Positions 6,712 through 22,703 of a stretch of DNA of 64,000 bases are shown here, in pieces (the first letter of the stretch is position 1; every line of letters starts with the position of its first letter). The translations under genes were made by a program, and so were the position numbers. The DNA lies in contig BDLO01000001.1 in NCBI GenBank assembly GCA_001950395.1, positions 1,091,979 through 1,155,978 on the forward strand, read 5' to 3'. Source of the stretch: Coriobacteriaceae bacterium EMTCatB1 (GTDB taxonomy: Bacteria; Actinomycetota; Coriobacteriia; Anaerosomatales; Anaerosomataceae). Below the pieces are notes generated by a model, which was given only the letters and a program-made list of their open reading frames with translations, made no database searches and was not told where the DNA came from.

Positions 6712-7533
6712 CTACGAGCCGATCGCCTCGCCGACCTTGACGAGCGCCGGCTTGAGGTCCGCAGGCTTCCCGGAGCGCACGTGCATCTCGATGGTCACGA
6801 GAAGCGAGCCGTCCGTGAACGCGAGCGCGGCATATCCGCTACGGGTGCCGAACCTCCCCTGCTTGCCCGCAACGGTGACGCTCGCGGCGTCGTTGGGATA
6901 GGTCTGTTTGAAGGTCTCGAGCCCGGATGCGGCGCGCTTTGCGTCCACCATCTGTTCGACCATGATGACCATCAAGTCGGCGTTGCCCGTGAGCGGAATG
7001 TAGTCGCGCGTGATGGACGCCGGGTCGGCGGTGATGCCCTGCGCGGTGTATCCGTCGAGGGAGTCCGGCACGTACTTGAGAAGGTTCGCCACCGGCCCGA
7101 CCGGTTCCTCGCCTCCCGCGGTCGACGTCCCCGGCTGGGAGCCGCCGCCGGGCGCAGGCGTGCCGCCGCCAGAGATCTCGTCGAGCTGCTGCTTGGCTTT
7201 CCCGCCAGCGTACGTCGGGTCTTTCGCGACGATCGCCGCGAGCTTGGCCTTCGCGGCATTGGTGTCGCCTTGGGCGAGCGCCTGCTGCGCGGCCTCCCAC
7301 AGCCCCGCAAGCCCCTGGTGCCGCTCGCAGGTCGTCACCTTGGTCTTGACCGAGTACTTCGAGACCTCGGAGACAGGGACCTGGATCTCCTTCGTGTTGT
7401 CCTCGATGACCTCGCCTGCGGTGCACAGCACGACCTCGCCAGTGCGAACGGTCACCATCTTGCGAGCGCACCCGGTGACGGGCACCGAGACCAGAAGCGC
7501 GAGAGCCACAACAACGCCGACGAACTGCTTCAC
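6712..7533 (-). CDS. Putative lipoprotein of unknown function, in the cytochrome/formate dehydrogenase operon
   Basis: 273 residues. The start MKQFVGVVVALALLVSVPVTGC is a lipoprotein signal with lipobox VTGC (Cys22), so the mature protein is lipid-anchored outside the membrane. Residues about 30-70 contain two further cysteines (VVLC, TTCERH). Residues 75-115 look like a TPR-type helical pair (LWEAAQQALAQGDTNAAKAKLAAIVAKDP). A Gly/Pro/Ser/Thr linker (about 120-145) joins this to a C-terminal domain of about 120 residues that I do not recognise. The start codon overlaps the stop of the upstream membrane-protein gene by 4 bases (ATGA), so translation is coupled. The product is presumably an accessory part of the surface redox assembly; no function is assigned. 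Confidence 0.7.
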   Translation of the reverse strand: MKQFVGVVVALALLVSVPVTGCARKMVTVRTGEVVLCTAGEVIEDNTKEIQVPVSEVSKYSVKTKVTTCERHQGLAGLWEAAQQALAQGDTNAAKAKLAAIVAKDPTYAGGKAKQQLDEISGGGTPAPGGGSQPGTSTAGGEEPVGPVANLLKYVPDSLDGYTAQGITADPASITRDYIPLTGNADLMVIMVEQMVDAKRAASGLETFKQTYPNDAASVTVAGKQGRFGTRSGYAALAFTDGSLLVTIEMHVRSGKPADLKPALVKVGEAIGS

Positions 7534-9035
7534 GAAGCATCACCCCTGTCCTGCGCGCCACGCTTCTTCGCCAGGCGCGTCAGCCACAACAGTAGCGCGA
7601 GCGAGAGCACCGCGCCACCGAACGACAGCCATAGCCACGGCGCGCTGAGCGTCGAGAACGCGATCGAGGCGTACTCGCTGCCGTAGTCCACCTGGATCTC
7701 CGAGGGTATCGCGCTCGACCAGGTGTGCAGCGGGGTCGCCCACACTGCAGGAAACGCCGCTGCCGCCACCAGGAGAGCCCACAGCACACGCGGCCTGCGA
7801 GTCGGGCGGAATGCGCATGCCGCTGCGCCGAGCGCGAGGCCGAGCACCGCCCAGCCGCCCACCGTCTCCAGCCCGAGCAGCGTGAACGACGCCTGGAACG
7901 TCGAGCCGTCCGCTCGCGTCGCCGAGACGCGCGCCACGAGCGCAGGCGTGGCGAGCGCGACCAGCCCGGACGCAAGGGCCGCAGCAGCCAGCACGCGCGC
8001 TGCAGCAGTCACGCCTCGCTGCTCGAAGTCCGCAGGCTCCTCTTGCTGAAGCCCAGCGACGATTGCCGCACCTGCAGTCGCGACGACGCCCCCCGCGGCG
8101 GCCTCTACCAGCAGGATCGGCTGGATGCCGAACGGCCGCAACGCCTGCTCGAGGGCCGTGACCCCAGTGAGCGCCACCGCCGGCAGGAACCACGCGCCCG
8201 CGAGAAGCGGCGCACCCCCGCGGCGCAGCAGCACGAGCCCGAGCACGGCCACCGCAGCCGAAAGCCCCGCGATCGCCCACCACGAAGGTTCGCGCACGGC
8301 AGACGAAAGACCTGCGATCTGCCACCGCGAGATGGCGAGCGCCACGGCGCTGGCGAACGCTCCGGCGCCGCTCGCGAGCGCTGCCTCAGCGAGCTTCCCG
8401 CGCTTTCGAGCGCGGTCGAGCGACCACCACGCGGCGGCCCACAGCACGCCCGCGGCAAGCATGAGCGCTTCCTCGAGCCGATACCGCACGAAGATCGAGA
8501 ACGAGCTCGGCCGCTCCCAGTTGGCGACCACACCCGCAACGCCGGCGCACGCGAGCACGACGCCCGCCAGCCGACGTGGCGCACGTCCTTCGCGCCACGA
8601 GCCGGACAGCGCAAGCGCAGCCGCCCACCCGGCAGTCGTGAGGAACAACACCTCGCTTCCGGGGGGCGCGTCGCTCATGCGATTCGATGCCACCAACAGC
8701 GGCGCCACAACGAAGCCGGCGGCGCCCAGGGCGAAGTGCGCGAGCGCTCGCGAAGAGCCGAGGCCGCCCAGCCGGCGGCCCCACGCAGCGGCCGCGAGGC
8801 CGGCTGCCGACCCGAGCGCCGAGGCCAGCGCGATCGCCGCAGGCGCGAGCGTCCGCATGCCGGCCGACTCGAACGCGAACCGCACGGCCACGCAGGCCGC
8901 GAGCAATATCGCGAGCGCCACGCCCGCGAACGAGCGCAGCGCGAAGGAGGGGCCGGTCGCCCGGCCCCTCCCGTCGCTTCGGCCGCCAGGAGGCTGGCCT
9001 GTGCGTGTCGCTACTTGTTGTGGCATGCCTCGCAC
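7530..9035 (-). CDS. Polytopic integral membrane protein, about 14 helices, function unknown
   Basis: Up to 501 residues, almost entirely hydrophobic helices separated by short arginine-rich or glycine-rich loops; I count about 13-14 segments. There is a faint resemblance to EamA/DMT-type permeases in repeated small-residue helices, but no diagnostic motif. The last loop before the final helix is long and polar (about 435-470) and probably external. The start is uncertain. GTG at 9035 or ATG at 9026 both overlap the end of the preceding cytochrome gene, and the first 30 residues (polar, Gly/Arg-rich) may not be translated, because a perfect hairpin lies at 8946-8971. A later GTG near 8927 is another possibility. 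Its place between a 6-heme cytochrome and a lipoprotein suggests a membrane component of the same redox chain, which is inference. Confidence 0.65.
   Translation of the reverse strand: MRGMPQQVATRTGQPPGGRSDGRGRATGPSFALRSFAGVALAILLAACVAVRFAFESAGMRTLAPAAIALASALGSAAGLAAAAWGRRLGGLGSSRALAHFALGAAGFVVAPLLVASNRMSDAPPGSEVLFLTTAGWAAALALSGSWREGRAPRRLAGVVLACAGVAGVVANWERPSSFSIFVRYRLEEALMLAAGVLWAAAWWSLDRARKRGKLAEAALASGAGAFASAVALAISRWQIAGLSSAVREPSWWAIAGLSAAVAVLGLVLLRRGGAPLLAGAWFLPAVALTGVTALEQALRPFGIQPILLVEAAAGGVVATAGAAIVAGLQQEEPADFEQRGVTAAARVLAAAALASGLVALATPALVARVSATRADGSTFQASFTLLGLETVGGWAVLGLALGAAACAFRPTRRPRVLWALLVAAAAFPAVWATPLHTWSSAIPSEIQVDYGSEYASIAFSTLSAPWLWLSFGGAVLSLALLLWLTRLAKKRGAQDRGDAS
8946..8971 (-). 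other. Perfect 11-bp GC-rich hairpin just downstream of the 6-heme cytochrome stop
   Basis: The arms GGAGGGGCCGG and CCGGCCCCTCC pair perfectly around a 4-base loop. On the minus strand the hairpin lies about 40 bases after the cytochrome stop codon (9011) and is followed only by TTCG, so it is a poor classical terminator. It could act as a 3'-end stabiliser that keeps cytochrome mRNA in excess over the downstream membrane genes. It also argues that the next gene may start later than its first possible codon. Confidence 0.5.
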
Positions 9036-10180
9036 ACGTAGCGGTTGTTGCCGCGCAGGAGCGCGTTGCCGTCCTCAGGCGGGACGCCGTTGGTGCCGGT
9101 GTCCGGCTGCGGGTCGGTCGCGTCTGCGATGTTCGCGTAGCCCGTCATGATGGCGGACGAGCCGTGCGCGACGTGGCAGGTCAGGCAGTCCATCCAGTCG
9201 GTGGCGTCGTTGCTGTTCGCATCCGCCCAGCCGTCGTGCGCGAGCGGCAGCGGGTTGGTCGTCACGATGATCGACCGGTACCCGGCGAAGTTGGACAGCG
9301 GGACATTCACGGGGTGGCGGTACCGCATGACGTAGCCGTAGCCGTCGGCGGCATCGTAGGTGCTCTCAGCGCTCGTGTACTGCGTGTGGCACGCAGCGCA
9401 CCATGCGCTGATGCCCTTGCTGGTGTCGCTGCCTGGCGCCTTGGCGTACCGCGGCGTCGTGTAGTCCGGCTTGTAGGTGGCCACCTGCGAAGCGCCTGGC
9501 TCGTGAAGCAGCCAGCCGCCCGTCGGATAGCCTTCCTCAGCGGAGATCACGTACGGCTGCGGGGTGGGGTTCACCGGGTCGACGCTGCCGTCGTACCCAC
9601 CGACCGTGACGCCGTTGACGATGTCCTTCAGCAGGCGATAGTTGGACGACCCATGCACGTCGTGGCATACGGTGCACGAGATGTCGACCTGCACGCCGCC
9701 GACGGAGATGATCCCATCACGGCCGGTCGTGCCGCCGCCGTACGCGACCCACGTCGTCCCGTTCGGGTAGTGGATCGTCGGGAATACCGCCGGATCGAAG
9801 CCGCCGCCGTTCAGCGGCTCGCCGAAGGAGTTGTACGCCCGGTCAGAACCGGTGTCAGCGCCGTCGTCGGCCTCGAACACGCCGTCAAAGACGTTCGTGT
9901 CAGCGCCGAGCATCGCCGAGCCGTGGCAGGTGTAGCAGAACTCGTCGATCGTGGTCGCGGTGCCCAAGAGCAGCGCGGACTGGCTTGCCGAGTTCGTGTC
10001 CACCCACGTGATCGGGCTTGCGGCGGTGTGCGCACGGTGGCAACCGGCGCACGCGTCGGTGCTCATGGTGTAGCTGCCGTGCACGGAGTAGTTCGCGTAT
10101 GCAACGCCGGGCGCGAGGAGCAGGCCGGCTGCAACCGCGACAGCGAGGATTGCAAGCGCATGTCGCTTCACAGTCATCAC
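9011..10180 (-). CDS. Hexaheme c-type cytochrome
   Basis: 389 residues with a cleavable signal peptide (MMTVKRHALAILAVAVAAGLLLAPGVAYA). Six CxxCH motifs: CAGCH, CYTCH, CTVCH, CAACH, CLTCH and CEACH, the last three residues from the C-terminus. Several are followed by H-G-S or V-H-G, as in doubled-CXXCH families, and extra histidines (HRAHTA, MRYRHPVN, LAHDGW) can serve as distal ligands. Tyr/Gly/Asn-rich spacers between haems suggest an extracytoplasmic protein with exposed loops. The gene overlaps the stop of the Fe-S subunit gene by 4 bases, so it is translationally coupled to formate dehydrogenase. It is the natural candidate for electron acceptor of that enzyme, in place of the usual cytochrome b subunit. 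That role is inferred from the operon. Confidence 0.88.
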   Translation of the reverse strand: MMTVKRHALAILAVAVAAGLLLAPGVAYANYSVHGSYTMSTDACAGCHRAHTAASPITWVDTNSASQSALLLGTATTIDEFCYTCHGSAMLGADTNVFDGVFEADDGADTGSDRAYNSFGEPLNGGGFDPAVFPTIHYPNGTTWVAYGGGTTGRDGIISVGGVQVDISCTVCHDVHGSSNYRLLKDIVNGVTVGGYDGSVDPVNPTPQPYVISAEEGYPTGGWLLHEPGASQVATYKPDYTTPRYAKAPGSDTSKGISAWCAACHTQYTSAESTYDAADGYGYVMRYRHPVNVPLSNFAGYRSIIVTTNPLPLAHDGWADANSNDATDWMDCLTCHVAHGSSAIMTGYANIADATDPQPDTGTNGVPPEDGNALLRGNNRYVCEACHNK

Positions 10181-11031
10181 ACCTCCCCTTCGACGCCGGA
10201 TGCCAACGCCTGCCGACGGGCGATGACGGCCGCGAGGCCGCCCGCGAGCAGTGTCGGCACGAGCGCCGCTTTCGCGAACGGACCGGAGACCAAGGACGAG
10301 ATGAGCGGGGTCACATGGTCTTCCACGTACGGGTCTGCCTTCGGCGGGACGAGCAGGACCTTCCGGCTCGCCCAGAACATGCTACCGTCACCGACGGCCG
10401 AGATGAAGCCGTTGGCGGGATCGTTGATGTAGGCAAGGATGTTCGCCCTCGTGTCCCACATCATCGCGCGCGCCGGGCAGGTGTACACGCAGCTCGGCTG
10501 GTGCGCCTTCTCAGGCACGGCAGCGATCTCGGCAGCCGTGGCCTTCGTCGGCAGGGGCGTGCCATACGAGCTGATCAAGCTCTCGCCCGCGCCCGCACGA
10601 CCGTAGCACAGCGTGCACTTCCACGCCTTGGCGGTCGAGTACAGGTCAGAACCGACGCCGACCTTCGGGTAGCCGCCGCGGCCGCAGTCGATCTGGCACT
10701 GGTAGATGCACTTGACTCCCTTGGAGTTTGTGCCGCCCGGGTTGCACAGCTCGGGGTCGACCATCACGGCGCCGTTCGACATCTTCTTGATGGCTCCGAA
10801 CGGGCAGCGCTTCGCGCACGGCGGGTTGGTGCAGTGCCAGCAGCTGAACCGCATGAACGGACCCATGTCGACGCGCTTTTGGGACTTGATGATGACACGC
10901 TGATCCGGCGCGGTCTTGTGGACGCCGGGGTTCAGAGCCTTCATCTTCCAGGTGCGCTTGCAGGAGATGACGCAGCCGTTGCAACGCATGCACTTGTCGA
11001 CGTCCTGCAGGATAGCCATCACGTTACCCAT
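10177..11031 (-). CDS. fdhB: Formate dehydrogenase iron-sulfur subunit with C-terminal membrane anchor
   Basis: 284 residues of the DmsB/FdnH/NrfC family of four-cluster ferredoxin subunits. Cysteine groups in order: CMRCNGCVISC (14-24), CWHCTNPPCAKRCP, CIYQCQIDC with KCTLC, and SCVYTCPARAMMW. These fit four [4Fe-4S] sites carrying electrons from the molybdopterin subunit. A hydrophobic segment near the C-terminus (about 252-272, AKAALVPTLLAGGLAAVIA) followed by RR is the single anchoring helix also found in FdnH. There is no signal sequence, so it would be co-exported with the TAT-targeted catalytic subunit. It begins 15 bases after the catalytic gene and overlaps the next gene (the 6-heme cytochrome) by 4 bases. 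No NarI/FdnI-type cytochrome b gene follows, so the electron exit is probably the cytochrome. Confidence 0.9.
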   Translation of the reverse strand: MGNVMAILQDVDKCMRCNGCVISCKRTWKMKALNPGVHKTAPDQRVIIKSQKRVDMGPFMRFSCWHCTNPPCAKRCPFGAIKKMSNGAVMVDPELCNPGGTNSKGVKCIYQCQIDCGRGGYPKVGVGSDLYSTAKAWKCTLCYGRAGAGESLISSYGTPLPTKATAAEIAAVPEKAHQPSCVYTCPARAMMWDTRANILAYINDPANGFISAVGDGSMFWASRKVLLVPPKADPYVEDHVTPLISSLVSGPFAKAALVPTLLAGGLAAVIARRQALASGVEGEV

Positions 11032-11045
11032 TGCTCATCACCTCC

Positions 11046-14000
11046 TTAAGCCTTCTCGATTCGGCAGAGACACGCCTTGTACTCTGGGATCGTCGTGTTC
11101 GCGTCCCACGCGTCGATGCACAGGTCGTTCGCACGCGAGCCCACACCGAGGCCGCGATCGCCCCAGTGCCACGGGATCGCCACGACGCCTGGCGCCACGC
11201 GCTGGTTCGCCAGCGTGCCGACGCCCACGCGCGCCTTGAAGCCCTTGGCCCAGCCGGAGATCGTCGTACGGGCCTCCTCATCGGTCGTGCTGTTGGAGCG
11301 CGCCGTGATGACGTTGACGTAGTCGCCGTCCTTGATGCCGTACTTGAGGGCATCGACCGAGTTGATCTCGATCCACGGCTCGGGCTCCATCTCCACGTTC
11401 CACGGGTTGTTGCGGGTGATCGGGCCGCCCTGGAAGTGCTCGACGCACCGGATGGTGGTGAGCACGAGCGGATACTGATCAACCGTGCCGCGCGGCGTGG
11501 TGGTGCCGACGGTGCTGAGCAGCGAGGCGCCCGCAGCCGTGTTCTGGCCCCAACGAGCGACCAGGTCGGGACGCGGCGACTCGTACGGCTCCGTGAACGC
11601 CGGGAAGCGACCGGGCAGGTAGTGCGGATCGCCGATGCCGGCGTCGGGCTGGTCCTTGAGGAAGCTGTACTTGCGGTACAGCGTCGACCAGTCCGCCAGG
11701 GCGTTCGTGTTGTTCACGAACAGCCGGGCGGTGTACCCAGGCGCCACGAACACGTCACTCACGTCGCCCGAAAGCTCGCCGTTGTTGTAGAAGATGCGGC
11801 GGTTGAGGAGCCACGCCCAGCCGTACCGCGGGTACTGCAGGGAGTCGCCTGCCAAGTCGCCGTTGCGGGACTTAGCGCGGTTGGCCTTGCCCCAGTTGGC
11901 GCCGACGGCCGGCTGCACGTCGCCAGTGTCGGTGTTGTACCCAGACGCCACACCATTGCCCGAGTAGATCCACATGGTGCCGGCGTACGACGTGCTGTCG
12001 CCGTTGTTGCCGTCGAGCGGCGAGCACATCTCCTTGAAGATCTCCTCCGCGACGACCTCGCTGCCGTACATCGTGACGCCCTCGGCGTCCGTGGCAGTCA
12101 GGCTCTCGAAGTCGCTCACACCGTCCCAGCCGTACTTCGCGTACAGCACGTCCCACGCATTGCTGCCGGCTCCACCGGGCCGATCGCTCATTTGGGCCCA
12201 CTGCGCCTCGATGTGGCTGAACGCGCCTGCGGCGTGCAGCGCCTTGGCGAAGCGGAGCAGCAGCTCGAGGTCAGACTTGCTGTTGCCCTTGGGCGCGCGC
12301 GCGCGGTCACGCCACTGGATCCAGCGGCCCGAGCTTGTGACTGAGCCCGCTTCCTCGACGTGCGAGCACGCCGGGAGCAGGTACGTGACGCCAGTGGACT
12401 TGCGCTTGCACTGCGCCGTCTCGTTGGCGAACATGTCGACCACGACGAGCAGGTCCAGGTTCTCCAGACCCTGGCGAACGGCGCTCTGGTTCGGCTCGGT
12501 GACGGCCGGGTTCTGACCCCAGACCACGGCGGCCTGGACCTCGCCGGTGATCATCCGCCGGAACGCCTCGATGTGCTGATACCCGTTGCCCTTCGGCCAA
12601 CAGGCGTACAGCGCGTCAAAGTCAGAGCTGCTGTAGCGTCCGTTGACGGACTTGCGCTCGCCGAACCACTCCACCGTCATGTTGTAGAACCCGCGCTGCT
12701 GCAAACCGAGCTTCGACGGGTCGTACGGGTCCTTCGCGCCGGTTCCGACGACCCGGTTGCCGAACAGGGTGTTCGAGTAGTCCGGATAGGTCGTTCCGAC
12801 GCCAGGGTTACCCGAATAGCCGGGGATGAGGTCGAACAGCAGACCCATGTCCGTCGAGCCCTGGACGTTGTGGATGCCGCGCAGCGCGTTGATGCCGCCG
12901 CCGGCACGACCCATGTTGCCCATGAGCGTCTGGATGACTGCGTACGACCGGACACCCTGCGAGCCGGTGGTGAACTGCGTGGCGCCCATCGCGTACATGA
13001 TGCACGCCGCACGATAGCCGGCAGCAGTCGGCGTTGCGGAAGCAGCGCCGAAGTCGCTCGACGCGAAGCGGCTGTTCTCGATCCACGCCTGCGCAACAGC
13101 GGCGATGTCCGCCTCCGTGCAGCCGCAGATGTCAGCCACGGTCGCCGCGTCGTACGGCGCCACGTGCGTGCGCAGCTTCTGGAACACGCAGTCCGGGTCG
13201 TCGATGTCAGCGGCAAGCACCGGGAAGTTGGAGATGGTCTCCGAACCGACTGTGAGCGTGGCGCGCTGATAGTCATCACCAGCGGTGTTGACCTTGAAGC
13301 GCGAGTCGCAGTACTTGGGCCAGTTCGTCACCGTGACGTTGTTGCCGCTGTCCGCGATGAACGTGCGGCTCGCCGTCGAGTTAGGCGCCGTGCTGTTGTG
13401 CCACGCGAAGAAGTTGTCAGCGATGGTGCTGCTGCCCTTGTTCGCGTACATCCAGTCGATGATCGCCTTGATGACGCCGTTGATGAAGGCGATGTTGGTG
13501 CCTGGACGGATGCGGACGTAGCGGTCGTGCTTGCGCTGGTCGTTCGGGTTCGACGCGTCGTACGGCACGCCCGTGAGGCGCGCGGTGCGCGTCTGCCGCG
13601 GGTCGACGACGATCAGCCCCGCGTTGCGGCCACGGCCGTAGGCGTCGAACCGGGCCTGGTTCACGTGCCCGATCGACGCGGGGTGGTTCTCAGCGGGGTT
13701 GGCGCCGATCACGAGGAACAGCGTCGAGTTGTCCAGGTCGACCCAGTTGTTGGTCATCGCGCCTCGTCCGAATGTGCGGCCAAGACCGGCCACCGTGGAC
13801 GAGTGTCATATACGGGCCTGGTGCTCGACGTTGCTCGTGCCGAAGTTCGCGATGATCTTGCGGTACAGGTAGTTCGGCTCGTTGTTCATGTGCGACGAGC
13901 CGAAGAACATGACCTTCTTCGAGTTCGACGCGGCCGTGCCGCCCGGCGTGATGGTGCCGCGAATCGAGACGAGCTGCGTCGCAATCTCAGTCATCGCGGT

Positions 14001-14426
14001 GTCGAGAGAGATCTCCTGCCACGGGTCGTTTCCGGTGCGCTTCCACGCGCGGCCCGTGAAGTCGAAGCCGTCCACCGCAGCGGTGTGCTCGGGAACGCCC
14101 AGGCGCCTGGGGTTCGTGACGAGCTGGTAAGAGCCGGCGCCCTTGGCGCACAAGCCACCGCGGTTTGTCGGGGAGTTCGGATCGCCGTAGATGTCGAGCA
14201 CAGTGCCGTCTGCCGCGACGTCCACCTTCTGGCCGCACTGCGCAGAGCAGTACGGGCAGGTGGTGGTGTAGGTCGCCGCGACGTCGGCGGCATTGGCTCG
14301 AGACGGCGTGAACACGAGATCGGCGCCGGCCGCCCCGACGACAGCCGCTGCGGCGCCGGCCTTCAGGAAGTCGCGCCGAGTGAGCTCGAACTTCCCTCCA
14401 GTGCCTTCTTTGTCGTGTGTAGCCAT
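11046..14426 (-). CDS. fdhA: TAT-exported selenocysteine formate dehydrogenase, molybdopterin catalytic subunit (UGA at 13806-13808 read as Sec)
   Basis: One gene interrupted by an in-frame TGA. Upstream of it the frame ends EHQARI and downstream it resumes HSSTVAGLGRTFGRGAMTN. This is the active-site signature of FdnG-type formate dehydrogenases, in which Sec occupies the TGA position and the next His is catalytic. The full product is 1126 residues with Sec207. Residues 14-46 hold a twin-arginine signal (TRRDFLKAG...). A CPYCSAQC plus distal Cys motif binds the proximal [4Fe-4S] cluster, and the rest is the bis-MGD molybdopterin oxidoreductase fold (formate + quinone or cytochrome -> CO2). 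Start chosen at ATG 14426 (GGAGAGG upstream), which puts RR at the usual distance; an in-frame start at 14489 would add 21 unrelated residues. It is somewhat longer than E. coli FdnG (about 1015). Expression needs SelA/B/C/D from elsewhere. The metal could be W instead of Mo. Confidence 0.93.
13776..13808 (-). promoter_or_regulatory. Bacterial SECIS element with its UGA(Sec) codon
   Basis: The UGA is at 13808-13806. Eighteen bases after it on the mRNA comes GGUCUU (13787-13782) as apical loop, flanked by a 6-bp stem GUGGCC (13793-13788) / GGCCGC (13781-13776) with one G-U pair. The loop starting G-G-U and the 18-base distance equal those of the E. coli fdhF element recognised by SelB. This supports recoding of UGA as selenocysteine and not a true stop or a sequencing error. 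Confidence 0.9.
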
Positions 14427-14584: not shown

Positions 14585-14817
14585 CTGTCGTCCGTATACG
14601 GCCTCCCTTACCCACATCGCGCGCCACCGTGGCCCTCGCTGAGGCCCACGGCTGCGCTCGTCCCCTTTCCGATGCGGGAGGCGCCGCAGTTTCCCACGAC
14701 ACCCTATCGGCCCGAAGTCCTTGGCTTTCCGCTGTAGGCGCTCCGGGCTCGGAGACGTCAACGGCCTTCTTCTGTTCTGTTCGACAACGCCTGCCGGGGT
14801 CCTTGCCGAACATGGGC

Positions 14818-14908: not shown

Positions 14909-16423
14909 CTAACGCTTCGCCCGCCGGTCGTGCTCGTTCACGAACGCCTCGGCGTCGAAGACCTGCGCGTCAAGCGCTCGCGCCACGCGTGCGAGATCTG
15001 TTTCTTGCGTGCCAAGCCGGCCGGTGCGCTGGATGAGCGAAAGCAGGATCGCGGTGTCGCGGTCGATGCCGATCTTCTCGATGAGGTCCGCCACGTCCGA
15101 CTCTGAGTGCGGCTCGCCAGCAAGCAGGTCGCCGAGCCGCACGCCGCCGAGCACGACGTCCGCCAGCCGCTCGTACTCTGCCTTCGGCACGATGAGTCGC
15201 AGGCGCTTCTGCTGCAGCGCATCCATGCGACCCAGCGCGGCGACCGCTTCGAGGAAGTCCTCGGTCACGACCACCTTGCGCTTGCGGAACGCGAGCGGCA
15301 GAAGCAGCAGCAACAGCGGCGAGAGGCACAGCCCCCACTGGACCGGCTTCTCGGGCGGCGTGACGGGCGGAACGACTGTGCTCGGCCAGCCCCAGACCTG
15401 CACTTGGTGGTTCTCGCGATCCGTGATGAACATGCGGCCACGCTTGTCGAGGGCGATGTCGTTCGGGTACTGGAACTGGCCAGGCCCGACGCCCGGCCCG
15501 CCGAACGACACCAGCCGCGCGCCCTGGAGATCGTAGGCATCGACGGCGTGCGCGAGCGGATCGACCACGAGCAGCCGCTGCTGCGAATCGATGACCATGC
15601 CGCGAGGAGTGCCCGACGTGGGGAGGATGCGCAAGAAGCGCCCCTGAGTGTCGAAGACTTGCACACGCCGGTTGTTGCCATCCGCGACAAAAACCTCCCC
15701 GTTCGGACCGATCGCGATGCTGTTCGGGAAGTAGAACGACCCCGGCGACTCTTGCATCCGGTTCGCCTGCACGGTGTTGCCGAACCGCAGGACCTCGGTG
15801 CCGTCCTGCTCGAACACGAGCACGCGGTGACCGCGCGTCTGACCGACGTCGCACACGTAGACCTTGCCGTCAGGGCCGAAGGTCACCGAGATCGGCGCCC
15901 ACGTCTTCGCAGCGTCGCTCTTCGGCACGAACCGCCTCTTGAAGGTGCCGTCCTTGTCGAAAACGAAGATGCCGCGGAGCATACGATCGGTGACCCAGAT
16001 CTCGCCCGACGGGCTCTCGGCGACGCGGCCCGGCTGCGCCAGGTGCGTCGCCTCGTCGCTCGCGAGCGCTCCGAAGCTGAACAGGTACGACCCGTCCACG
16101 CGGTACACGCGGACGACGTCGCTCTTCAGGTCGGTCACGTAGACGCGGTCGTCCTTGGTGACGTACACGCCGATCGGCTTGGCGAGGGCGTCCTTGCCCT
16201 CCGGACCGGCGATCGCGTACAGGAACTCCGGCGGCTGCACCGCCTCAGTGCCGCCGGTCACGAACGGGATCGGGAGCCGCCGGTTCGTCTGGTAGTACAG
16301 GGCCGAGTAGGTCAACAGGGCCAAAAGCAAGACGAGGAGGACGAGCAGGACGATCTTCCTGCGCTTGCTCCGCCGCTCTCTGTCTGCGAGGTACCGGTCC
16401 AGCCGGACAGATGCTTCAGCCAC
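14909..16423 (-). CDS. Membrane-spanning NHL-repeat protein with a cytoplasmic C-terminal domain
   Basis: 504 residues. A basic N-terminus (RERRSKRRK) precedes a strong transmembrane helix (about 24-43). Residues about 65-355 form about six NHL repeats (RVYVTDLKSDVVRVYRVDG, EVFVADGNNRRVQVFD, RMFITDRENHQVQVW), a complete external beta-propeller. A Pro-rich linker leads to a second helix (about 366-385) ending in RKRK. A charged domain of about 115 residues follows inside the cell (about 390-504, acidic/leucine-rich, unrecognised; it may resemble PIN-like folds). Propeller outside plus soluble domain inside could sense or assemble the cytochrome complex across the membrane; that is inference. 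It is last in the cytochrome b operon, 18 bases after the TPR gene. Confidence 0.8.
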   Translation of the reverse strand: MAEASVRLDRYLADRERRSKRRKIVLLVLLVLLLALLTYSALYYQTNRRLPIPFVTGGTEAVQPPEFLYAIAGPEGKDALAKPIGVYVTKDDRVYVTDLKSDVVRVYRVDGSYLFSFGALASDEATHLAQPGRVAESPSGEIWVTDRMLRGIFVFDKDGTFKRRFVPKSDAAKTWAPISVTFGPDGKVYVCDVGQTRGHRVLVFEQDGTEVLRFGNTVQANRMQESPGSFYFPNSIAIGPNGEVFVADGNNRRVQVFDTQGRFLRILPTSGTPRGMVIDSQQRLLVVDPLAHAVDAYDLQGARLVSFGGPGVGPGQFQYPNDIALDKRGRMFITDRENHQVQVWGWPSTVVPPVTPPEKPVQWGLCLSPLLLLLLPLAFRKRKVVVTEDFLEAVAALGRMDALQQKRLRLIVPKAEYERLADVVLGGVRLGDLLAGEPHSESDVADLIEKIGIDRDTAILLSLIQRTGRLGTQETDLARVARALDAQVFDAEAFVNEHDRRAKR

Positions 16424-16441
16424 GTCGCACGCTCCGAGGTC

Positions 16442-17458
16442 TCACTGCTTCTTCGTCAACTCGTTCAGCGCTGCCGTCGCCTCAGGATCCTCCGGGGCGA
16501 GCTGCAGCACCTTCTCCCACGCGTCCGCCGCGTCCTTCGCGCTCCCGAGCTCCTGCAAGAGCCGCGCCTTGATCCGCGCAGCCTCCAGGTTCTTTGGATC
16601 GAGCGCGGACGCGATCCGCGCTTCGACGAGCGCCGCCTTCTTGTCCGTCGCCAGCAGCGACTTGGCCTTGGCGAGCCTGTCAGCGAACGGCCCGAGCTTC
16701 TCGAGTTCCTGCAACGGTTCCGGTTGCCCTGGAGCGCCGTCGATCGCTCGCCGGAACGCCTCTGCCGCTCCCGCGAGGTCGCCGTCATTCACGAGGAGCC
16801 GGCCGAGGTCGTAGTTCGCCTCGGGCAGCAGCGGATCGAACGCGAGCGCGGTCTCGAGCTCCTGACGCGACTTGTCGGCGATGCCGAGCTCGCGGTACGC
16901 CACTGAGAGCGCGTAGTGCGTGTCCGATGCGTCGCGCCTGATGCGTAGCGCCTCTTTCAGGTAGCCCGCTGCGTCCTCGTACTGCTTGCGCTTGATGAGC
17001 GTGACGCCGAGGTAGTAGTAGGCGCGCTCCAGCCGGTTGTCCGCGTTGGCGAACTGCCCGCCTCGCAGCTTGTCGATGATCCTCCGGAAGTAGCCCTCGG
17101 CAGTGGCCCACTGCTGCTGCTTGAGCGCGATCATCCCAAGCCCTTCGAGCGCCGCGGGGTTGTCCTCGTCGAGCTTGAGGGCAGCCTGGAACTGCTCGAT
17201 GGCGTCGTTGAGGCGACCCTGCCCAGCGAGCGCCTGCGCCAGGAGGATCCGGGCGTTCGGATTCCTCGGATCCTTGCGAACGGCCTCGGCGAGATTTTCG
17301 ACGGCGCGCGCCGCGATCGTGGTGCTCTGGGTGCGCCGGTTGTAGTCCCACGCTGTGTACGCGAGATAGAGCAGCGCGACGACCACGAGCGCGGCGACGG
17401 CTTTCAGAGCGTAATCGAGCTGACGGCTTGAAAGGCGGAACTTCACGGTACTGGTCAC
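16442..17458 (-). CDS. Membrane-anchored TPR-repeat protein
   Basis: 338 residues. One transmembrane helix near the N-terminus (about 19-38, ALKAVAALVVVALLYLAYTAW). The rest is about seven tetratricopeptide repeats (for example NARILLAQALAGQGRLNDAIEQFQAALKLDEDNP and DTHYALSVAYRELGIADKSRQELETALAFDP), forming a protein-binding superhelix. Such proteins often accompany multiheme cytochromes as assembly or scaffold factors (compare CcmH/NrfG and OmcS-cluster partners). It lies 9 bases after the 20-heme cytochrome and 18 before the NHL protein, in one transcription unit. The inside or outside location of the TPR part is not certain: by the positive-inside rule the basic RRTQS after the helix leaves it ambiguous. 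Confidence 0.8.
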   Translation of the reverse strand: MTSTVKFRLSSRQLDYALKAVAALVVVALLYLAYTAWDYNRRTQSTTIAARAVENLAEAVRKDPRNPNARILLAQALAGQGRLNDAIEQFQAALKLDEDNPAALEGLGMIALKQQQWATAEGYFRRIIDKLRGGQFANADNRLERAYYYLGVTLIKRKQYEDAAGYLKEALRIRRDASDTHYALSVAYRELGIADKSRQELETALAFDPLLPEANYDLGRLLVNDGDLAGAAEAFRRAIDGAPGQPEPLQELEKLGPFADRLAKAKSLLATDKKAALVEARIASALDPKNLEAARIKARLLQELGSAKDAADAWEKVLQLAPEDPEATAALNELTKKQ

Positions 17459-17467
17459 TCCTGCTCG

Positions 17468-19060
17468 TCAGATCTTCAAGTCGGTATGGCAGCGTCGGCA
17501 GAGCTCGGAGCCGGGCCAGGGCGCGATCTGGAGCCGGTTCACGTCGAGGGCGCCGTGGCAATCGTAGCACGCGCGCAAGTCGTGTGGGCCTGACAGCTGG
17601 CTCGTGACGTGCACCTCGGAGAACCCGAACCCGACGTGGCACTCCGAACAGAGGTACGGCTTGCCCTTCTTCTTCGCGACGTCGAAGTGCACGGCATGCT
17701 CCGCGAGCGGCGCATTCTTGATCTTCGTGGCGGGCTCAGTGCGCATCTCCGGATGGCACTTCACGCAGTTCTCGCGCACCAGCTCCACCGAGCGCACGTC
17801 CTGGTGATGGCACTCCTGGCAGGTCCGCCGGTCCTTGTGGCAGACGTTGCAGTCCTTCCCCAAGGACCCGTTCTGCTTCGAGTGCGCCGCTAACCAGTTC
17901 GACGGGTGCGGCATCGTCGTCTGGTGGCACTTCGTGCACGACGCCGACTCGTGGCACACCGCGCACAGCCCCTCTTGCGCCAGGTACTTGCCGCCGTGGT
18001 CGGTTCGCCACTGCGCTTTCCGGTGATCCGCTGGGATGACTTTCCGGCTCGTCCGACCGTCCGCCATCTTCACCCCGCCGTTGTGGCACTTCACGCACGC
18101 GCTCGACCTGTGGCACATCGAGCAGTAGGTCGGCTCGTTGCGCGCGCGGTCGCGGTGCCCGCCGCTCAAGAACTTCTTGGTGTGGTTCACCGGCACGAGC
18201 TGGAACTCCTTCGGATGGCAGGCGTCGCACTTCTCCGGCGCAACCTCGCCCTTGTCGCTGTGTACGAGCCCGTGGCACCGGTAGCAGTCCTGCATCGCGT
18301 TCAAGAGCGTGCCTTGCGGCTGGTGCGGGAACTTCGGATGGCACGTCGCGCACTTGTAGGCGCGCTTCAGGTGCGTGTCGTGCGTGAAAATGATGCGCCC
18401 CGGCTTGATGCCGTTGATGTCCGCGTGGCAGAACACGCACTGTCCTACGGTCACCGGCTCGTCGACGTCGATGAGCACCGAGGGCTCCTCGGGCTTGATG
18501 GGCACGGAGCGCAGGTACACCGAGGGCATCGGGCCGATCTCGGGCTTCTCGCGCGCATGGCACTCGTCGCAGTCCTTCTTCGGCTCGTGGCAGAGCAGGC
18601 AGCCGTTCACATTGCCTTTGGACGCGACGGCGTGCGGCTTCGCTTTCCAGTCCTTCACGTGCGAGGCCGGCCTGAGCGTGAAGTCCTTGGTGTGGCAGTC
18701 GCGGCAGTCGCCGCTGGCGATGAGCCCCGACGGGCCGTGCACCAGCCCGTGACAGGAGAAGCACGTCTGCATCGTCGGGCGCGTGGTCTTGCCATCGCGA
18801 TGCGGCGTGGCTACGTGGCAGGCAGAGCACTCGACGGTGAGGTGAGACGCATGGCTGAAGATGAGGCCGGGTGCCTTGGCCGCACCGATCGAGGCATGGC
18901 ACGGGACGCAATTGCGTGGCTCGATGGGCCCCGTGAGGTCGACCGGTGGCGTGTCGGTCTGCGTCAGAGCCGTCTCTGGGGCGCTCGCGACGAAGGCGGC
19001 CGCCAGGAGCGCGGCGGCCGCCAGCTTCAGAGCACGTCTGACGACGGCGCTCTTGCGCAT
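17468..19060 (-). CDS. 20-heme c-type cytochrome
   Basis: About 530 residues: signal peptide (RKSAVVRRALKLAAAALLAAAFVASA) and then 20 CxxCH motifs, roughly one haem per 25 residues. In order: CVPCH, CSACH, CFSCH, CRDCH, CLLCH, CDECH, CVFCH, CATCH, CYRCH, CDACH, CSMCH, CVKCH, CAVCH, CTKCH, CNVCH, CQECH, CVKCH, CSECH, CYDCH, CRRCH. The pattern F-S-H-x-x-H before a haem repeats in the halves 'LIFSHASHLTVECSACH' and 'IIFTHDTHLKRAYKCATCH', so an internal duplication of a NrfH/cytochrome-c3-like unit is likely. There is no obvious wall or membrane anchor. It is probably a long-range electron wire outside the membrane. Start taken at ATG 19060; an in-frame TTG at 19081 would overlap the preceding gene. 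Second-last electron carrier of the operon. Confidence 0.93.
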   Translation of the reverse strand: MRKSAVVRRALKLAAAALLAAAFVASAPETALTQTDTPPVDLTGPIEPRNCVPCHASIGAAKAPGLIFSHASHLTVECSACHVATPHRDGKTTRPTMQTCFSCHGLVHGPSGLIASGDCRDCHTKDFTLRPASHVKDWKAKPHAVASKGNVNGCLLCHEPKKDCDECHAREKPEIGPMPSVYLRSVPIKPEEPSVLIDVDEPVTVGQCVFCHADINGIKPGRIIFTHDTHLKRAYKCATCHPKFPHQPQGTLLNAMQDCYRCHGLVHSDKGEVAPEKCDACHPKEFQLVPVNHTKKFLSGGHRDRARNEPTYCSMCHRSSACVKCHNGGVKMADGRTSRKVIPADHRKAQWRTDHGGKYLAQEGLCAVCHESASCTKCHQTTMPHPSNWLAAHSKQNGSLGKDCNVCHKDRRTCQECHHQDVRSVELVRENCVKCHPEMRTEPATKIKNAPLAEHAVHFDVAKKKGKPYLCSECHVGFGFSEVHVTSQLSGPHDLRACYDCHGALDVNRLQIAPWPGSELCRRCHTDLKI

Positions 19061-19064
19061 CCTC

Positions 19065-20306
19065 CTAGTCGCGACCTCCAAGTATCGAGCCGACGAGGCG
19101 TAGGAGCCCGTTGTTCTGCCTGACGGCGACCTTCTTGTGGATCAGGTCCCGCGACGCGCGGACGAACGACTCGCTGGAGTCCTTGTGCTGATGGCACCGC
19201 GCGCACGTCTCGGGCAGGTTCGCTGGATCGACAGGAGACGCCGGATCTCCCGCCGCCTTCACGTCGTGGGCGTCGTGGCAGTCCCAGCACGCGGGGGCGT
19301 CTTTCGCTCCGCGCTTGTACGCGGCGCCGTGGTAGTAGTCGCTGTACGAATCCCAGTAGTCCTGATGGCACGTGCCGCACATCGACTCAGCTGACGCGTG
19401 CAGCGCCTCGCTCGCCTCCTTGGTGTCCAGCCGCTGGATGTCGTGGCCGCGGTGGCACGACCCGCACGTCGCCGACCTCAGGTTGCCCTTCGCGATCTCC
19501 TTGGCGTGCACCGACTCGGCGTACTTCTTCGCCTGGGCGTCGTGGTCGTGGCACTCGGCGCACGCCAGCCCAGCGTTGACGTTCCACAGCGGCGTGGCTG
19601 GCTTGACCTCCGCGTAGGCGAAGTCCGGATGGCACTTCTGGCAGCTCAAGTCCCGATGCGCAGAGCGCTCGAGCCCTGTGACTTGGAACGACTTCACGCC
19701 GGTGCTCGTGGTGCGCACGAGGTTGGGGCTGCCGTGGCACGCCTGGCAGCCCGTCCCGGCGTCGTAGAGGAACGGAACCGGCGGCTTCCACTGGACGCCC
19801 GTCTTGATGTGGCAGTCGTCGCACTGCTTGAGCGTGTGGCACATCGCGCACTTGGTCGTGAGCTCGTCACGCGCGGGCTGCACGTGCGGCGTCTCCGCCC
19901 AGTCCTCGGTGTGGAACGCGGGCCGCAGCGGCTTGCCCGTGGAGTAGTGGCAGTCGTAGCACTTGCCCGTCGCGAGCACGCCCTGCGGTCCGTGGACGAG
20001 CGCGTGGCAGTTGAAGCACTGCTTCATGTCCATCTTGAGCGTGCCTTCGGGCCGGTGGGGGAACTGCGTGTGGCAGCTCGAGCACGCGTACGTGATGTGG
20101 TTGCCGTGGCTGAACTTCACCGGGAACGTGTCCGGCGTCTTGGCTACGTTGCCGTGGCACGGGGCGCACTTGTCGGCGAAGACGGTCCCGCCGATGTCGA
20201 TCGTGAGCCCGTACGCGACGGCGCTCCACCCGATGGTCGCGCACGCGAGCGCTGCCGCCGCGAGCGCAATCGAGACAAGCCTGCCGGAGCGTGTCTCTGC
20301 TCTCAC
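19065..20306 (-). CDS. 13-heme c-type cytochrome
   Basis: 413 residues: signal peptide (about 1-33, ending VAYG) and 13 CxxCH motifs (CAPCH, CSSCH, CFNCH, CYDCH, CAMCH, CDDCH, CQACH, CQKCH, CAECH, CGSCH, CGTCH, CWDCH, CARCH). The C-terminal half, from CQACH on, matches the neighbouring 300-residue cytochrome, including the shared stretch HGAAYKRGAKDAPACWDCH. The N-terminal half matches the FSH..H..CSACH..CFNCHxLVHGP pattern of the 20-heme protein. It thus looks like a fusion of both designs. The C-terminus (LIHKKVAVRQNNGLLRLVG) is amphipathic and may touch the membrane or cytochrome b. It lies 48 bases after the 7-haem-site gene, same operon. Confidence 0.92.
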   Translation of the reverse strand: MRAETRSGRLVSIALAAAALACATIGWSAVAYGLTIDIGGTVFADKCAPCHGNVAKTPDTFPVKFSHGNHITYACSSCHTQFPHRPEGTLKMDMKQCFNCHALVHGPQGVLATGKCYDCHYSTGKPLRPAFHTEDWAETPHVQPARDELTTKCAMCHTLKQCDDCHIKTGVQWKPPVPFLYDAGTGCQACHGSPNLVRTTSTGVKSFQVTGLERSAHRDLSCQKCHPDFAYAEVKPATPLWNVNAGLACAECHDHDAQAKKYAESVHAKEIAKGNLRSATCGSCHRGHDIQRLDTKEASEALHASAESMCGTCHQDYWDSYSDYYHGAAYKRGAKDAPACWDCHDAHDVKAAGDPASPVDPANLPETCARCHQHKDSSESFVRASRDLIHKKVAVRQNNGLLRLVGSILGGRD

Positions 20307-20354
20307 TTCTCGATCCCCTACCCTTCTCGGACCTCGGATTCCACGTGCCGCCTG

Positions 20355-21257
20355 CTAACCTTTCAGAATGAACCCGAACAGCTGCCGGAGAACCTTGTAC
20401 ACGGGATTGTCCTGCTTCGCTTGCCGTTTGTGATGTATCGCGTCGACGTACGACGCCACGAAGTCCTCGTCGACGGTGCTGCGCTTATGGCACCCCTCCT
20501 GGCCGCACGTCTCGACGAGGTTGGCCTCGTTCACGCGGGACTTGCGGTCCTTCGCGGGCAGGATGTCGTGCCATCCGTGGCAGTCCCAGCACGCTGGGGC
20601 GTCCTTCGCGCCGCGCTTGTACGCAGCTCCGTGGTAGTAGTCGTCGTAACTCTCCCAGTAGTCCTGGTGGCACCGCCCGCACACGTCCCAGCCTGAGGCG
20701 TGCAAGGCAGCCTGTCCGGCCTTCGAGTCCGTAAGCTTCTGGATCGCGTGGCTGCCGTGGCAATCGCCGCACAGCGGCTTCGACGCTTCGACGCTCACAC
20801 GTGTGCCGGTGGCGTCGACGGCGCGCTGGTGCACGCCCTTTCCGAACGCCACGAACTGCTCGTCGTGGCAGTTGCGGCACGCGGTCTTCGCGGTGACTTG
20901 CCAGTCGACGTCGGTGTCGTGGGGCAGCTTGTACGCAAAGTCCAAGTGGCACGCGACGCACTGTTCCTTGCCGTGGACCGACAGGCCGTACTCGTCCGGC
21001 GCCACGTAGTAGCTCGTGATCTTCCCGGCTTTCAAGCGCACGAGATCCGGATCCCCGTGACACACGAGACAGCCGGCCTTGCTCTGCGTCGGCAACGTGA
21101 AGTCGAGATCGTACCCCGTCGTCACGCGCGACGCCGGCGCCGTAGCGACGAGCGAGGGCGTCGCAGCAACAGCCGCACCCGCCCAAGCGACTACGAGCAG
21201 GAAGCACAGCGCGAACGCTCGAGCGAGCCCCCAGTGTCCTCGTACTCGAGATGTCAC
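20355..21257 (-). CDS. Multiheme c-type cytochrome, six CxxCH plus one CX4CH site
   Basis: 300 residues with an N-terminal signal peptide or anchor (about 12-32). Haem motifs: CLVCH, CVACH, CRNCH, CGDCH, CGRCH, CWDCH, and then CGQEGCH, a CX4CH motif. At the corresponding place the 13-heme paralogue has ordinary CARCH, so the longer loop is probably a genuine seventh haem site of the kind known in cytochrome c3/HAO-type proteins. The conserved DYYHGAAYKRG segment lies between haems 5 and 6. The C-terminus (IHHKRQAKQDNPVYKVLRQLFGFILKG) is basic and hydrophobic. It is adjacent to the cytochrome b gene (3-base gap) and is the likely first acceptor of electrons leaving the membrane subunit. Confidence 0.9.
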   Translation of the reverse strand: MTSRVRGHWGLARAFALCFLLVVAWAGAAVAATPSLVATAPASRVTTGYDLDFTLPTQSKAGCLVCHGDPDLVRLKAGKITSYYVAPDEYGLSVHGKEQCVACHLDFAYKLPHDTDVDWQVTAKTACRNCHDEQFVAFGKGVHQRAVDATGTRVSVEASKPLCGDCHGSHAIQKLTDSKAGQAALHASGWDVCGRCHQDYWESYDDYYHGAAYKRGAKDAPACWDCHGWHDILPAKDRKSRVNEANLVETCGQEGCHKRSTVDEDFVASYVDAIHHKRQAKQDNPVYKVLRQLFGFILKG

Positions 21258-21260
21258 GGG

Positions 21261-22106
21261 CTAGTCCCCTTCTGCATGCGCAGCAGCGAGACCTGCGGCG
21301 CCCTCGTGCTCCTCATCGTGATGGGCGTACGCATCCGGGTAGATGGTGAGCTTCTTGATGCCGAAGAAGTCGAGCGAGCAGGGCAGATCCTCGGCGACTG
21401 CAAGATACATGTGCACCGTCACGAGGATGATGAAGATCCAGTTGACGCTGTAGTGGATGATGCGGGCCCACGCACCGGCGAGCGCGACGCTGCCTGGAAG
21501 CCAGCCAAGCAGCACCTCGCGTGGCGAGAGCCCGAACAGGATCGGTTGCGTGAGGAGCGCGATGCCAGTGAGCCCCTGGACGAGCATGAGCACCGCGAAC
21601 AGGTCGTAGGTGATCTTCTGCATCACGTTGTACTTGGCGACGTGCGGCTTCTTGTTGCTCAGGTAGAAGTAGTACATCGCCACGCCGAGCATCGACTGCA
21701 AGTCCTTCTTGGTGATGGCGAACTCCTTGTAGTCGCGCTCCTTCGAGAAGAACGCGTACCACAGCCGCCAGAAGTAGTTCACGCCCACGATGAAAGCAGC
21801 CACGTAGTGCAGGTAGCGCATGGCCGTCCGGCCTCCGTCGAAGAACGGGAACCGGATGTACATGCCCGAGAAGGCGAGCAGCCCCATCATCGCCAGGTGC
21901 TGGAAATGCATGAACTTCGGCAGCGCCGGCGGCGCCCAGTCGTGCTTGGGCCACTCGTGCAGGAACCACTTCTTCTTGAAGCGTCCCGTCGGAATGCCGA
22001 GCACGAACAGGTGGACGACGAAGAACGCCACCAGCACGAGCAGCCAGACCGTGGTGAACACCACGTCGAGCCAGACGTTCACCTGAGTGAGCAGAATCGC
22101 CAACAC
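21261..22106 (-). CDS. Di-heme cytochrome b (b561/HyaC/FdnI-like) membrane subunit
   Basis: 281 residues, four or five transmembrane helices (about 10-35, 67-85, 98-118, 165-190, 215-240). Candidate haem-ligand histidines sit in helices: KFMHFQHLAMMG, RYLHYVAAF, RIIHYSVNW and LVTVHMYLAV, as in hydrogenase/formate-dehydrogenase cytochrome b. It would pass electrons between the menaquinone pool and the periplasm-side multiheme cytochromes encoded next. The His/Glu-rich tail (AYAHHDEEHEG) could bind metal. It starts at GTG 22106 (GGTAGGGG just before) and is first in the operon, about 100 bases after a predicted promoter. Family assignment is by topology and histidine pattern only. Confidence 0.82.
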   Translation of the reverse strand: MLAILLTQVNVWLDVVFTTVWLLVLVAFFVVHLFVLGIPTGRFKKKWFLHEWPKHDWAPPALPKFMHFQHLAMMGLLAFSGMYIRFPFFDGGRTAMRYLHYVAAFIVGVNYFWRLWYAFFSKERDYKEFAITKKDLQSMLGVAMYYFYLSNKKPHVAKYNVMQKITYDLFAVLMLVQGLTGIALLTQPILFGLSPREVLLGWLPGSVALAGAWARIIHYSVNWIFIILVTVHMYLAVAEDLPCSLDFFGIKKLTIYPDAYAHHDEEHEGAAGLAAAHAEGD

Positions 22107-22268: not shown

Positions 22269-22703
22269 TCACCGCTCGACTATCTCCACCAGTTCTATCT
22301 CGAAGGTAAGTGTCCTGCCTGCAAGCGGGTGGTTGAAGTCGAGGGTGACGGTCATGAGGTCGTCGCTGATCGCGCTCACAGTGGCCGCGAGCTGCGTCCC
22401 GTCGTCAGCGATAACGCTCACGACGTCTCCGATCTCGGGCGCCGCTTCACCGAACAGGTCGATCGGCACTTCCTGAACCGCTTCCTCGTACCGAGGGCCG
22501 TACGCTTCCTCGGGAGGGATGGTCGTCACGGCTTTCTCGCCGACCTCAAGCCCGATGACCGCCGCCTCAAAGCCCGGGATGACATCGCCTTCGCCGAGCG
22601 TGAACAGAAGCGGAGCGCGACCCTCGCTCGAATCGAAGACCGTCCCGTCTTCGAGCGTGCCGCGGTAGTGGACGGTGACGGTATCACCTGAGCGTGCTGG
22701 CAT
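22269..22703 (-). CDS. slyD: FKBP-type peptidyl-prolyl cis-trans isomerase, SlyD-like
   Basis: 144 residues. The FKBP core is split by the insert-in-flap domain typical of SlyD: core start VTVHYRGTLEDGTVFDSSEG with FTLGEGDVIPGFEAAVIGLEVGEK, then the insert (about 70-120, IPIDLF... IGDVVSVIADDG... MTVTLDFNHPLAG), and the closing strand TLTFEIELVEI. It catalyses Xaa-Pro isomerisation and acts as a chaperone in the cytosol. Unlike E. coli SlyD it ends directly after the core, with no His/Cys-rich nickel-binding tail. ATG at 22703 has AGGCAGCAGG upstream. It follows the RDD gene by 66 bases on the same strand and lies just before the cytochrome operon promoter. Confidence 0.9.
   Translation of the reverse strand: MPARSGDTVTVHYRGTLEDGTVFDSSEGRAPLLFTLGEGDVIPGFEAAVIGLEVGEKAVTTIPPEEAYGPRYEEAVQEVPIDLFGEAAPEIGDVVSVIADDGTQLAATVSAISDDLMTVTLDFNHPLAGRTLTFEIELVEIVER

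Follow-up and report, generated by a model that had tools for sequence, protein, structure and literature searches.

A conserved cytochrome b and multihaem cytochrome gene cluster with exchangeable formate dehydrogenase or hydrogenase genes in Coriobacteriia and other Actinomycetota

In Desulfovibrio, exported formate dehydrogenases or NiFe(Se) hydrogenases without a quinone subunit of their own donate electrons to multihaem cytochromes (Hmc, Qrc, Tmc). A different module is CbcBA of Geobacter sulfurreducens, in which we take CbcB to be of the PF01292 type and CbcA to carry seven haems. A section of PMC10553843, citing Joshi 2021, describes CbcBA as an inner-membrane quinol:cytochrome c oxidoreductase used in low-potential extracellular respiration. 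The Mco system of anaerobic methanotrophic (ANME) archaea, which lack an outer membrane, has a hydrogenase-type cytochrome b (VhtC) that adjoins a cytochrome with 7 or 11 haems (PMC9012536). Here we analyse a gene cluster that resembles each of these in part. It lies in a 64-kb stretch of DNA (the window; 67.7% G+C) from the complete 1.84-Mb genome of Coriobacteriaceae bacterium EMTCatB1, in which six closely packed genes, all on the minus strand, encode in order a membrane cytochrome b (cytb), three secreted multihaem cytochromes (c7, c13 and c20), a TPR protein and an NHL protein. Genes encoding a formate dehydrogenase (FDH), which we call the head, and a fourth multihaem cytochrome (c6b) follow:

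21261..22106, minus strand: cytb, cytochrome b561 / Ni-Fe-hydrogenase-type membrane cytochrome b, 281 aa (PF01292, 63.8 bits)
20355..21257, minus strand: c7, secreted cytochrome best read as heptahaem (six CxxCH and one CX4CH), 300 aa (motif count, conserved His)
19065..20306, minus strand: c13, secreted 13-haem cytochrome (motif count, module homology)
17468..19081, minus strand: c20, secreted 20-haem cytochrome (motif count; true start possibly 19060)
16442..17458, minus strand: TPR protein with an N-terminal membrane anchor (transmembrane segment 17-35; TPR families, position conserved)
14909..16423, minus strand: NHL beta-propeller protein with transmembrane segments 24-42 and 361-379 (PF01436)
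14646..14766, minus strand: molybdenum/tungsten cofactor riboswitch ahead of fdhA (RF01055, 61.5 bits, cut-off 36)
11046..14426, minus strand: FdhA, selenocysteine (Sec) formate dehydrogenase catalytic subunit exported by twin-arginine translocation (Tat), ATG at 14426 (translation with Sec228)
10177..11031, minus strand: FdhB, 4x[4Fe-4S]-type electron-transfer subunit with a C-terminal transmembrane segment (ferredoxin-type family match)
9011..10180, minus strand: c6b, secreted hexahaem cytochrome (PF09699 and PF22113)

An initial annotation of the window had read the six genes at 14909-22106 as a complete electron conduit with a quinone-type cytochrome b. Its gene set and coordinates are exact, and a conduit with such a cytochrome b is supported by the PF01292 match, invariant bis-histidine (bis-His) sites and the conserved gene order. 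That the conduit is complete is not supported: wherever contigs of the order are readable, a dehydrogenase head follows it and then, if the contig extends that far, another multihaem cytochrome. We propose that these genes probably encode a single conduit outside the cytoplasm to which different dehydrogenase heads can be fitted, linked to menaquinone through cytb and c7 and delivering electrons outward. Possible, and distinctly more tentative, is a phylum-wide machine of the Actinomycetota, in which a 7/13/20-haem conduit would take electrons directly from exchangeable Sec-FDH or [NiFe] hydrogenase heads (the latter with one or two selenocysteines in the L1 motif in some relatives) via a hexahaem adaptor and release them outside the cell, with or without the quinone pool.

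Conservation was assessed in a class-wide sample of 298 genomes, in the 69 genomes of the order and in 396 genomes of the phylum from outside the class. Neighbourhoods were compared for 34 loci from the class sample and 45 named loci retrieved by scanning public genomes (handles in L denote loci and handles in G genomes of the comparative sample). Genes encoding c7 occur in 48 of the 298 class genomes, all from one order and about 15 families, and across these families most neighbourhoods keep the order cytb-c7-c13-c20-TPR-NHL. The cytb and c7 genes adjoin in nearly every locus that has both on the contig. Once duplicates were removed, the next genes in 39 loci of the order encode either FdhA and FdhB (29 loci) or the small and large subunits of a periplasmic-type [NiFe] hydrogenase (10 loci). 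Two more contigs stop inside the N-terminus of a Tat-exported FDH, which brings the typed loci to 41 (31 FDH and 10 [NiFe]), and two further contigs reach only a TupABC-like tungstate transporter. The c6b gene follows either head wherever a contig of the order is long enough. Across the 69 order genomes, c6b and c7 are both present in 40 and both missing from 18, with only one of the two in 8 and 3 (Fisher p 7e-8, a nominal value, the genomes being related); for instance, G003 carries the module and G013 has neither c7 nor c6b.

An FDH copy and a [NiFe] copy coexist at separate loci in G063 (L046 and L056), isolate C14-13 (L085 and L095) and bin117 (L113 and L114). In a tree of c20 with 47 rows, the [NiFe] state needs three changes under parsimony, and a single [NiFe] clade receives p = 0.0498 in the approximately unbiased (AU) test. 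Repeated head exchange is likely on these two grounds, rather than firmly shown, and a [NiFe] version that forms a single side branch is borderline rejected by the same results. Other loci differ in the conduit itself. The cytb and c13 genes are missing from L046, L049, L067 and L068, which keep c7-c20-TPR-NHL-FDH (L067 ends before the head), and L095 and L117 have an extra gene upstream of c20 that encodes an 11-haem c20-like protein.

Outside the class, the c7 profile matches 32 of the 396 genomes, and the recurring gene order is cytb-c7-c20-TPR-NHL, with 20 or 14 haems in c20. In L129 a [NiFe] hydrogenase and c6b stand beside the conduit, and in L144 the [NiFe] hydrogenase alone precedes the contig end. 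L133 and L135 have a different gene order, c6b-FdhA-FdhB, and L137 and L138 hold both heads in one locus. A public-genome scan with strict peptide patterns from c20 retrieved only Coriobacteriia-type or unplaced Actinomycetota records. The view of the family as a whole as order-specific was rejected because the profile search finds relatives in other classes.

In the [NiFe] large subunits encoded beside the conduit in L129 and L144 (other classes) and L095 (same order), in-frame TGA codons stand exactly at the active-site cysteine positions of L1. The L1 motifs read RIUAVU and RIUGVU (two TGA) or RICGVU (one TGA), and the L4 motif DPCIAC is intact. In the conduit-linked hydrogenase, selenocysteine would then replace one L1 cysteine or both, for which one limited literature search found no earlier report. 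The unlinked hydrogenase of the source genome itself (G000:C1:409573-411072; L118, L063) has a TGA in L4 (DPUIGC), is of the NiFeSe type and lies beside another PF01292 cytochrome b.

The head in the window is FdnG-like. As in FdnGHI, a Sec-containing, Tat-exported catalytic subunit (FdhA; Tat motif RRDFLK) is paired with a ferredoxin-type FdhB. The in-frame TGA at 13806-13808 encodes Sec228 (context EHQARIUHSSTVAGL), a TGA stands at the Sec codon in every relative checked, and selB is present in the genome. FdhA is the only PF00384 protein, and the only molybdopterin oxidoreductase, of the complete genome. Unlike FdnGHI, the locus has no adjacent FdnI; hexahaem c6b takes its place and is proposed to be the electron acceptor of the head. 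The riboswitch RF01055 also precedes fdhA in 6 of 8 relatives. Directly after the conduit in L097 and L101 there is the TupABC-like tungstate transporter (recognised by eye in the translated sequence), and for this reason the FDH of some members may use tungsten instead of molybdenum.

The 39 CxxCH motifs and one CX4CH that the initial annotation had counted in the three adjoining cytochrome genes were found again on recounting (20 in c20, 13 in c13 and 6 in c7, with the CX4CH at c7 residue 251). Shuffled copies of the same proteins have a mean of 0.05-0.21 CxxCH motifs and a maximum of 3. Each of c7, c13 and c20 begins with a single hydrophobic, signal-like segment and has no other membrane segment. 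The six(+1)-haem label given earlier to c7 is right as a motif count, but the alignment of homologues rules out the CX4CH as a spurious motif and favours a real seventh haem site whose spacing drifts. We count it as such because about 40% of 35 homologues have CxxCH in this column (CX4-, CX5-, CX8- or CX15CH in others), and the His of the site and its partner His275 near the C-terminus are conserved in all aligned sequences. The spacings at haem 7 (L043, L057, L065 and others) form a natural series for the tolerance of haem attachment.

Among 24-34 aligned relatives per cytochrome, His residues outside the motifs that are kept in 93-100% of rows total 7 for c7, 12 for c13 (plus a thirteenth at 87%), 20 for c20 and 6 for c6b, in agreement with 7, 13, 20 and 6 haems. 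From this one conserved extra His per haem we infer that all four are low-spin bis-His relays and not open-haem reductases; the alignments of c20, c7 and c6b show no haem that is obviously open and catalytic. Based on local alignments, c13 consists of a 6-haem module A and a 7-haem module B that is homologous to c7, and c20 consists of A, A' and an 8-haem module C. The A/B module homology persists with the haem motifs masked. Sequence searches of the PDB with the conduit proteins gave marginal multihaem matches only and no close relatives; entry 28pb, a 278-aa 'cytochrome c', matches c7 at E 2e-6. The TIGR04257 nanowire_3heme model scores 19.8 and 22.4 bits, under its cut-off of 40. AlphaFold2 models have a mean predicted local distance difference test (pLDDT) score of 54 and a predicted template modelling (pTM) score of 0.35 for c20 (22 sequences), and 51 and 0.26 for c13 (20 sequences).

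HyaC (4gd3) is the sole PDB relative of cytb (E 7.5e-5), and TIGR02125 scores 75.3 bits, under its cut-off of 121.5. The His residues at positions 32, 67, 70, 100, 155, 218 and 232 are invariant, and we propose cytb as the putative menaquinone site. Only one other PF01292 protein is encoded in the genome, beside the unlinked hydrogenase at 409 kb. The TPR protein is proposed to be an assembly or docking factor, and so is the NHL protein. Clusters with NHL, TPR and multihaem proteins are present in the Gram-positive Fe(III) reducer Dethiobacter alkaliphilus, and such partners have been proposed as assembly helpers (sections of PMC10376724). In the NHL protein of the window, residues 361-504 comprise the second transmembrane segment and a tail of about 125 aa, probably cytoplasmic, with a possible signalling or docking role.

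Compared by architecture and description, the locus is like CbcBA in that a PF01292 cytochrome b gene adjoins a gene for a heptahaem cytochrome c. Unlike CbcBA, it adds 13- and 20-haem proteins, TPR, NHL and an FDH or hydrogenase, in a cell without an outer membrane. The likeness to Mco lies in the HyaC-type cytb beside a 7-haem cytochrome (cytb likened through 4gd3, VhtC by description), whereas Mco is archaeal, has cytochromes fused to S-layer domains and has no head, and here each of the 41 loci typed in the order has an FDH or [NiFe] head. The Desulfovibrio plan is shared as far as the exported head and the multihaem cytochromes go, but the membrane module here is cytb561 and c7, with no NrfD seen, and the multihaem proteins are large and belong to a Gram-positive cell. 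The view of the initial annotation that the cluster does not match Mtr, Hmc or Tmc is supported. For Mtr/Pcc, there is no beta-barrel in the cluster, and the DmsE model TIGR03508 reaches at most 40.6 bits against a cut-off of 192.2. The reported lack of a porin or NrfD partner holds in the genes scanned; the reported lack of an FeS partner holds within 14909-22106, but FdhB lies just downstream. Comparison with hidden Markov models and of synteny, named there as checks, gave a gene order conserved in relatives and, in the genes scanned, no NrfD family and no HmcB match above cut-off.

Electrons could pass through the module as follows. The exported head would oxidise formate (here) or H2 (in some relatives) outside the membrane, and its FeS clusters would pass electrons to the dedicated hexahaem c6b and on to the shared bis-His relay of c7, c13 and c20. 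The cytb and c7 pair would exchange electrons with menaquinone, much as in CbcBA or Mco, and c20, sometimes with c13, would take electrons away from the membrane to an extracellular acceptor such as Fe(III). The TPR and NHL proteins would be membrane-anchored docking or assembly proteins. The loci without cytb suggest that a head can feed c20 and bypass the quinone pool. The sequences directly show which genes are present, their conserved order, the conserved haem sites and His residues, the export signal of the head and the exchange of heads between loci; physical contact between the proteins, the order and direction of transfer and the crossing of the wall are what we infer.

The published physiology of a relative fits the proposed module. 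Strain Es71-Z0120 (1,840,996 bp, 67.65% G+C, 9 contigs), apparently congeneric with the source bacterium, is an obligate Fe(III) reducer that grows on H2 or formate, according to sections of PMC9686372. Its cluster MCL4079376-90 holds multihaem cytochromes and a formate dehydrogenase (MCL4079382-3), and in 2022 this equivalent cluster was named as the probable determinant of Fe(III) reduction. Listed under Parvivirga hydrogeniphila with multihaems and a molybdopterin enzyme, it very probably corresponds to the present cluster in a closely related bacterium. According to the same sections, Fe(III) is not reduced by Anaerosoma tenue (2,107,022 bp, 6 contigs).

Several observations weigh against the proposed conduit. 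Outside the class, the conduit of L130 is complete but lacks an adjoining head, and L139 likewise has no head nearby. The conduit half and the FDH half may be regulated separately, since the gap of about 0.4 kb between the NHL gene and fdhA carries its own Mo/W riboswitch. The FDH of the cultured relative was given the role of reducing CO2 for the reductive glycine pathway (sections of PMC9686372). The membrane-to-wall path is put forward conditionally because c7, c13 and c20 have no wall anchor.

Some of these points would suit a different arrangement, in which cytb and c7, extended by c13 and c20, form a stand-alone menaquinol:extracellular-acceptor oxidoreductase of the CbcBA/Mco type and the dehydrogenase is a mere neighbour that feeds the quinone pool or another path. 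We consider this rather unlikely. The cytb and heptahaem pair does resemble CbcBA and Mco, and both the separate riboswitch of the FDH unit and the headless L130 agree with it. However, chance would hardly account for a strict alternation between unrelated heads that share one c6b on every contig long enough to show it, or for a set that is kept through reordering in other classes; and FDH copies without cytb and c13 still have c7 and c20 (L046, L049, L068).

Those same copies, which have no cytb beside them, also count against a periplasmic FDH whose electrons reach menaquinone by way of c6b, c7 and cytb, the last acting like a distant FdnI gamma subunit; c13 and c20 would then store haem or form an exchange pool, with no extracellular transfer. 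In favour, FdhA is FdnG-like, and cytb, a member of the hydrogenase/FdnI superfamily, is the sole candidate gamma subunit in the genome besides the hydrogenase's own. Nevertheless, the FdnI model TIGR01583 scores just 19.6 bits on cytb against a cut-off of 115.85, the 33 haems of c13 and c20 far exceed the need of a quinone link, and the apparently congeneric cultured strain is an obligate Fe(III) reducer (sections of PMC9686372). This alternative is quite unlikely.

Electrons could also flow inward, from Fe(II) or partner cells outside, to reduce CO2 to formate or make H2 and so supply the reductive glycine pathway, a direction that we judge highly unlikely. FDH and hydrogenase are reversible enzymes, which favours it, as does the position of the genome's only FDH in this cluster. 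Its counterpart was assigned to CO2 reduction for autotrophy, but the cultured strain uses Fe(III) to oxidise formate or H2 (sections of PMC9686372), CO2/formate (about -0.43 V) is uphill from the usual extracellular donors, and formate made outside would need import. That the cluster is a divergent form of one of the complexes characterised in sulfate reducers (Hmc, Nhc, Tmc, Qrc) is extremely improbable: a periplasmic FDH or hydrogenase with multihaem cytochromes is the Desulfovibrio plan and the [NiFe] heads resemble the NiFeSe HysAB, yet no NrfD-type subunit, HmcA or TmcA was seen in the conduit or FDH genes scanned, the HmcB model scores 37.9 bits (on FdhB) against a cut-off of 420, and close PDB relatives are lacking.

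Other genes of the window flank the conduit and the head:

22269..22703, minus strand: FKBP-type peptidyl-prolyl isomerase (FKBP models)
7530..9035, minus strand: o9035, family unassigned, position conserved (no Pfam or NCBIfam match)
6712..7533, minus strand: o7533, lipobox-like start, position conserved (no Pfam or NCBIfam match)

The FKBP gene lies upstream of cytb in the loci of family f1 (L038-L045, L058 and L062) and not in other families, and is probably a neighbour of the cluster and no core part. A second NHL-repeat protein is encoded downstream of c6b (window 5478-6707). Downstream of the FDH block, window 1740-5414 encodes a 1224-aa surface protein with a Ycf48-like propeller, an Ig-like domain and three CWB2 wall-binding stretches; about 9 kb beyond the conduit, it is a possible wall anchor for the system. 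A 979-aa cytochrome with 13 CxxCH (window 1-1610; L037:12650-15589) closes the same strand block, and its window-side part has FG-GAP and MtrC/F-like domain matches. A haem-codon pattern occurs 353 times in the whole genome versus 89 in the control, pointing to a multihaem-rich genome.

In the open-licence literature searched, we found no description of the conserved conduit architecture, of interchangeable heads with a common hexahaem or of the pattern across the phylum. The relevant sections of PMC9686372 and PMC10376724 give homology lists without the cytb-c7-c13-c20 architecture, the head alternation, the c6b partner or the conservation across order and phylum. The parts themselves are of known kinds.

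Extracellular electron transfer by Gram-positive bacteria is understood for a few Firmicutes only. The module provides a gene signature that recurs in other classes of the phylum and, within this subsurface order, in about 70% of the genomes sampled. Relatives that join one conduit to either head suggest that the oxidation of formate or hydrogen may be coupled to rust-like minerals in a modular fashion. The order has cultured isolates, in which direction, quinone dependence and partners are directly testable. The head type suggests the electron donor of each copy and, if this is right, formate- or H2-driven mineral respiration would be predictable from genomes alone.

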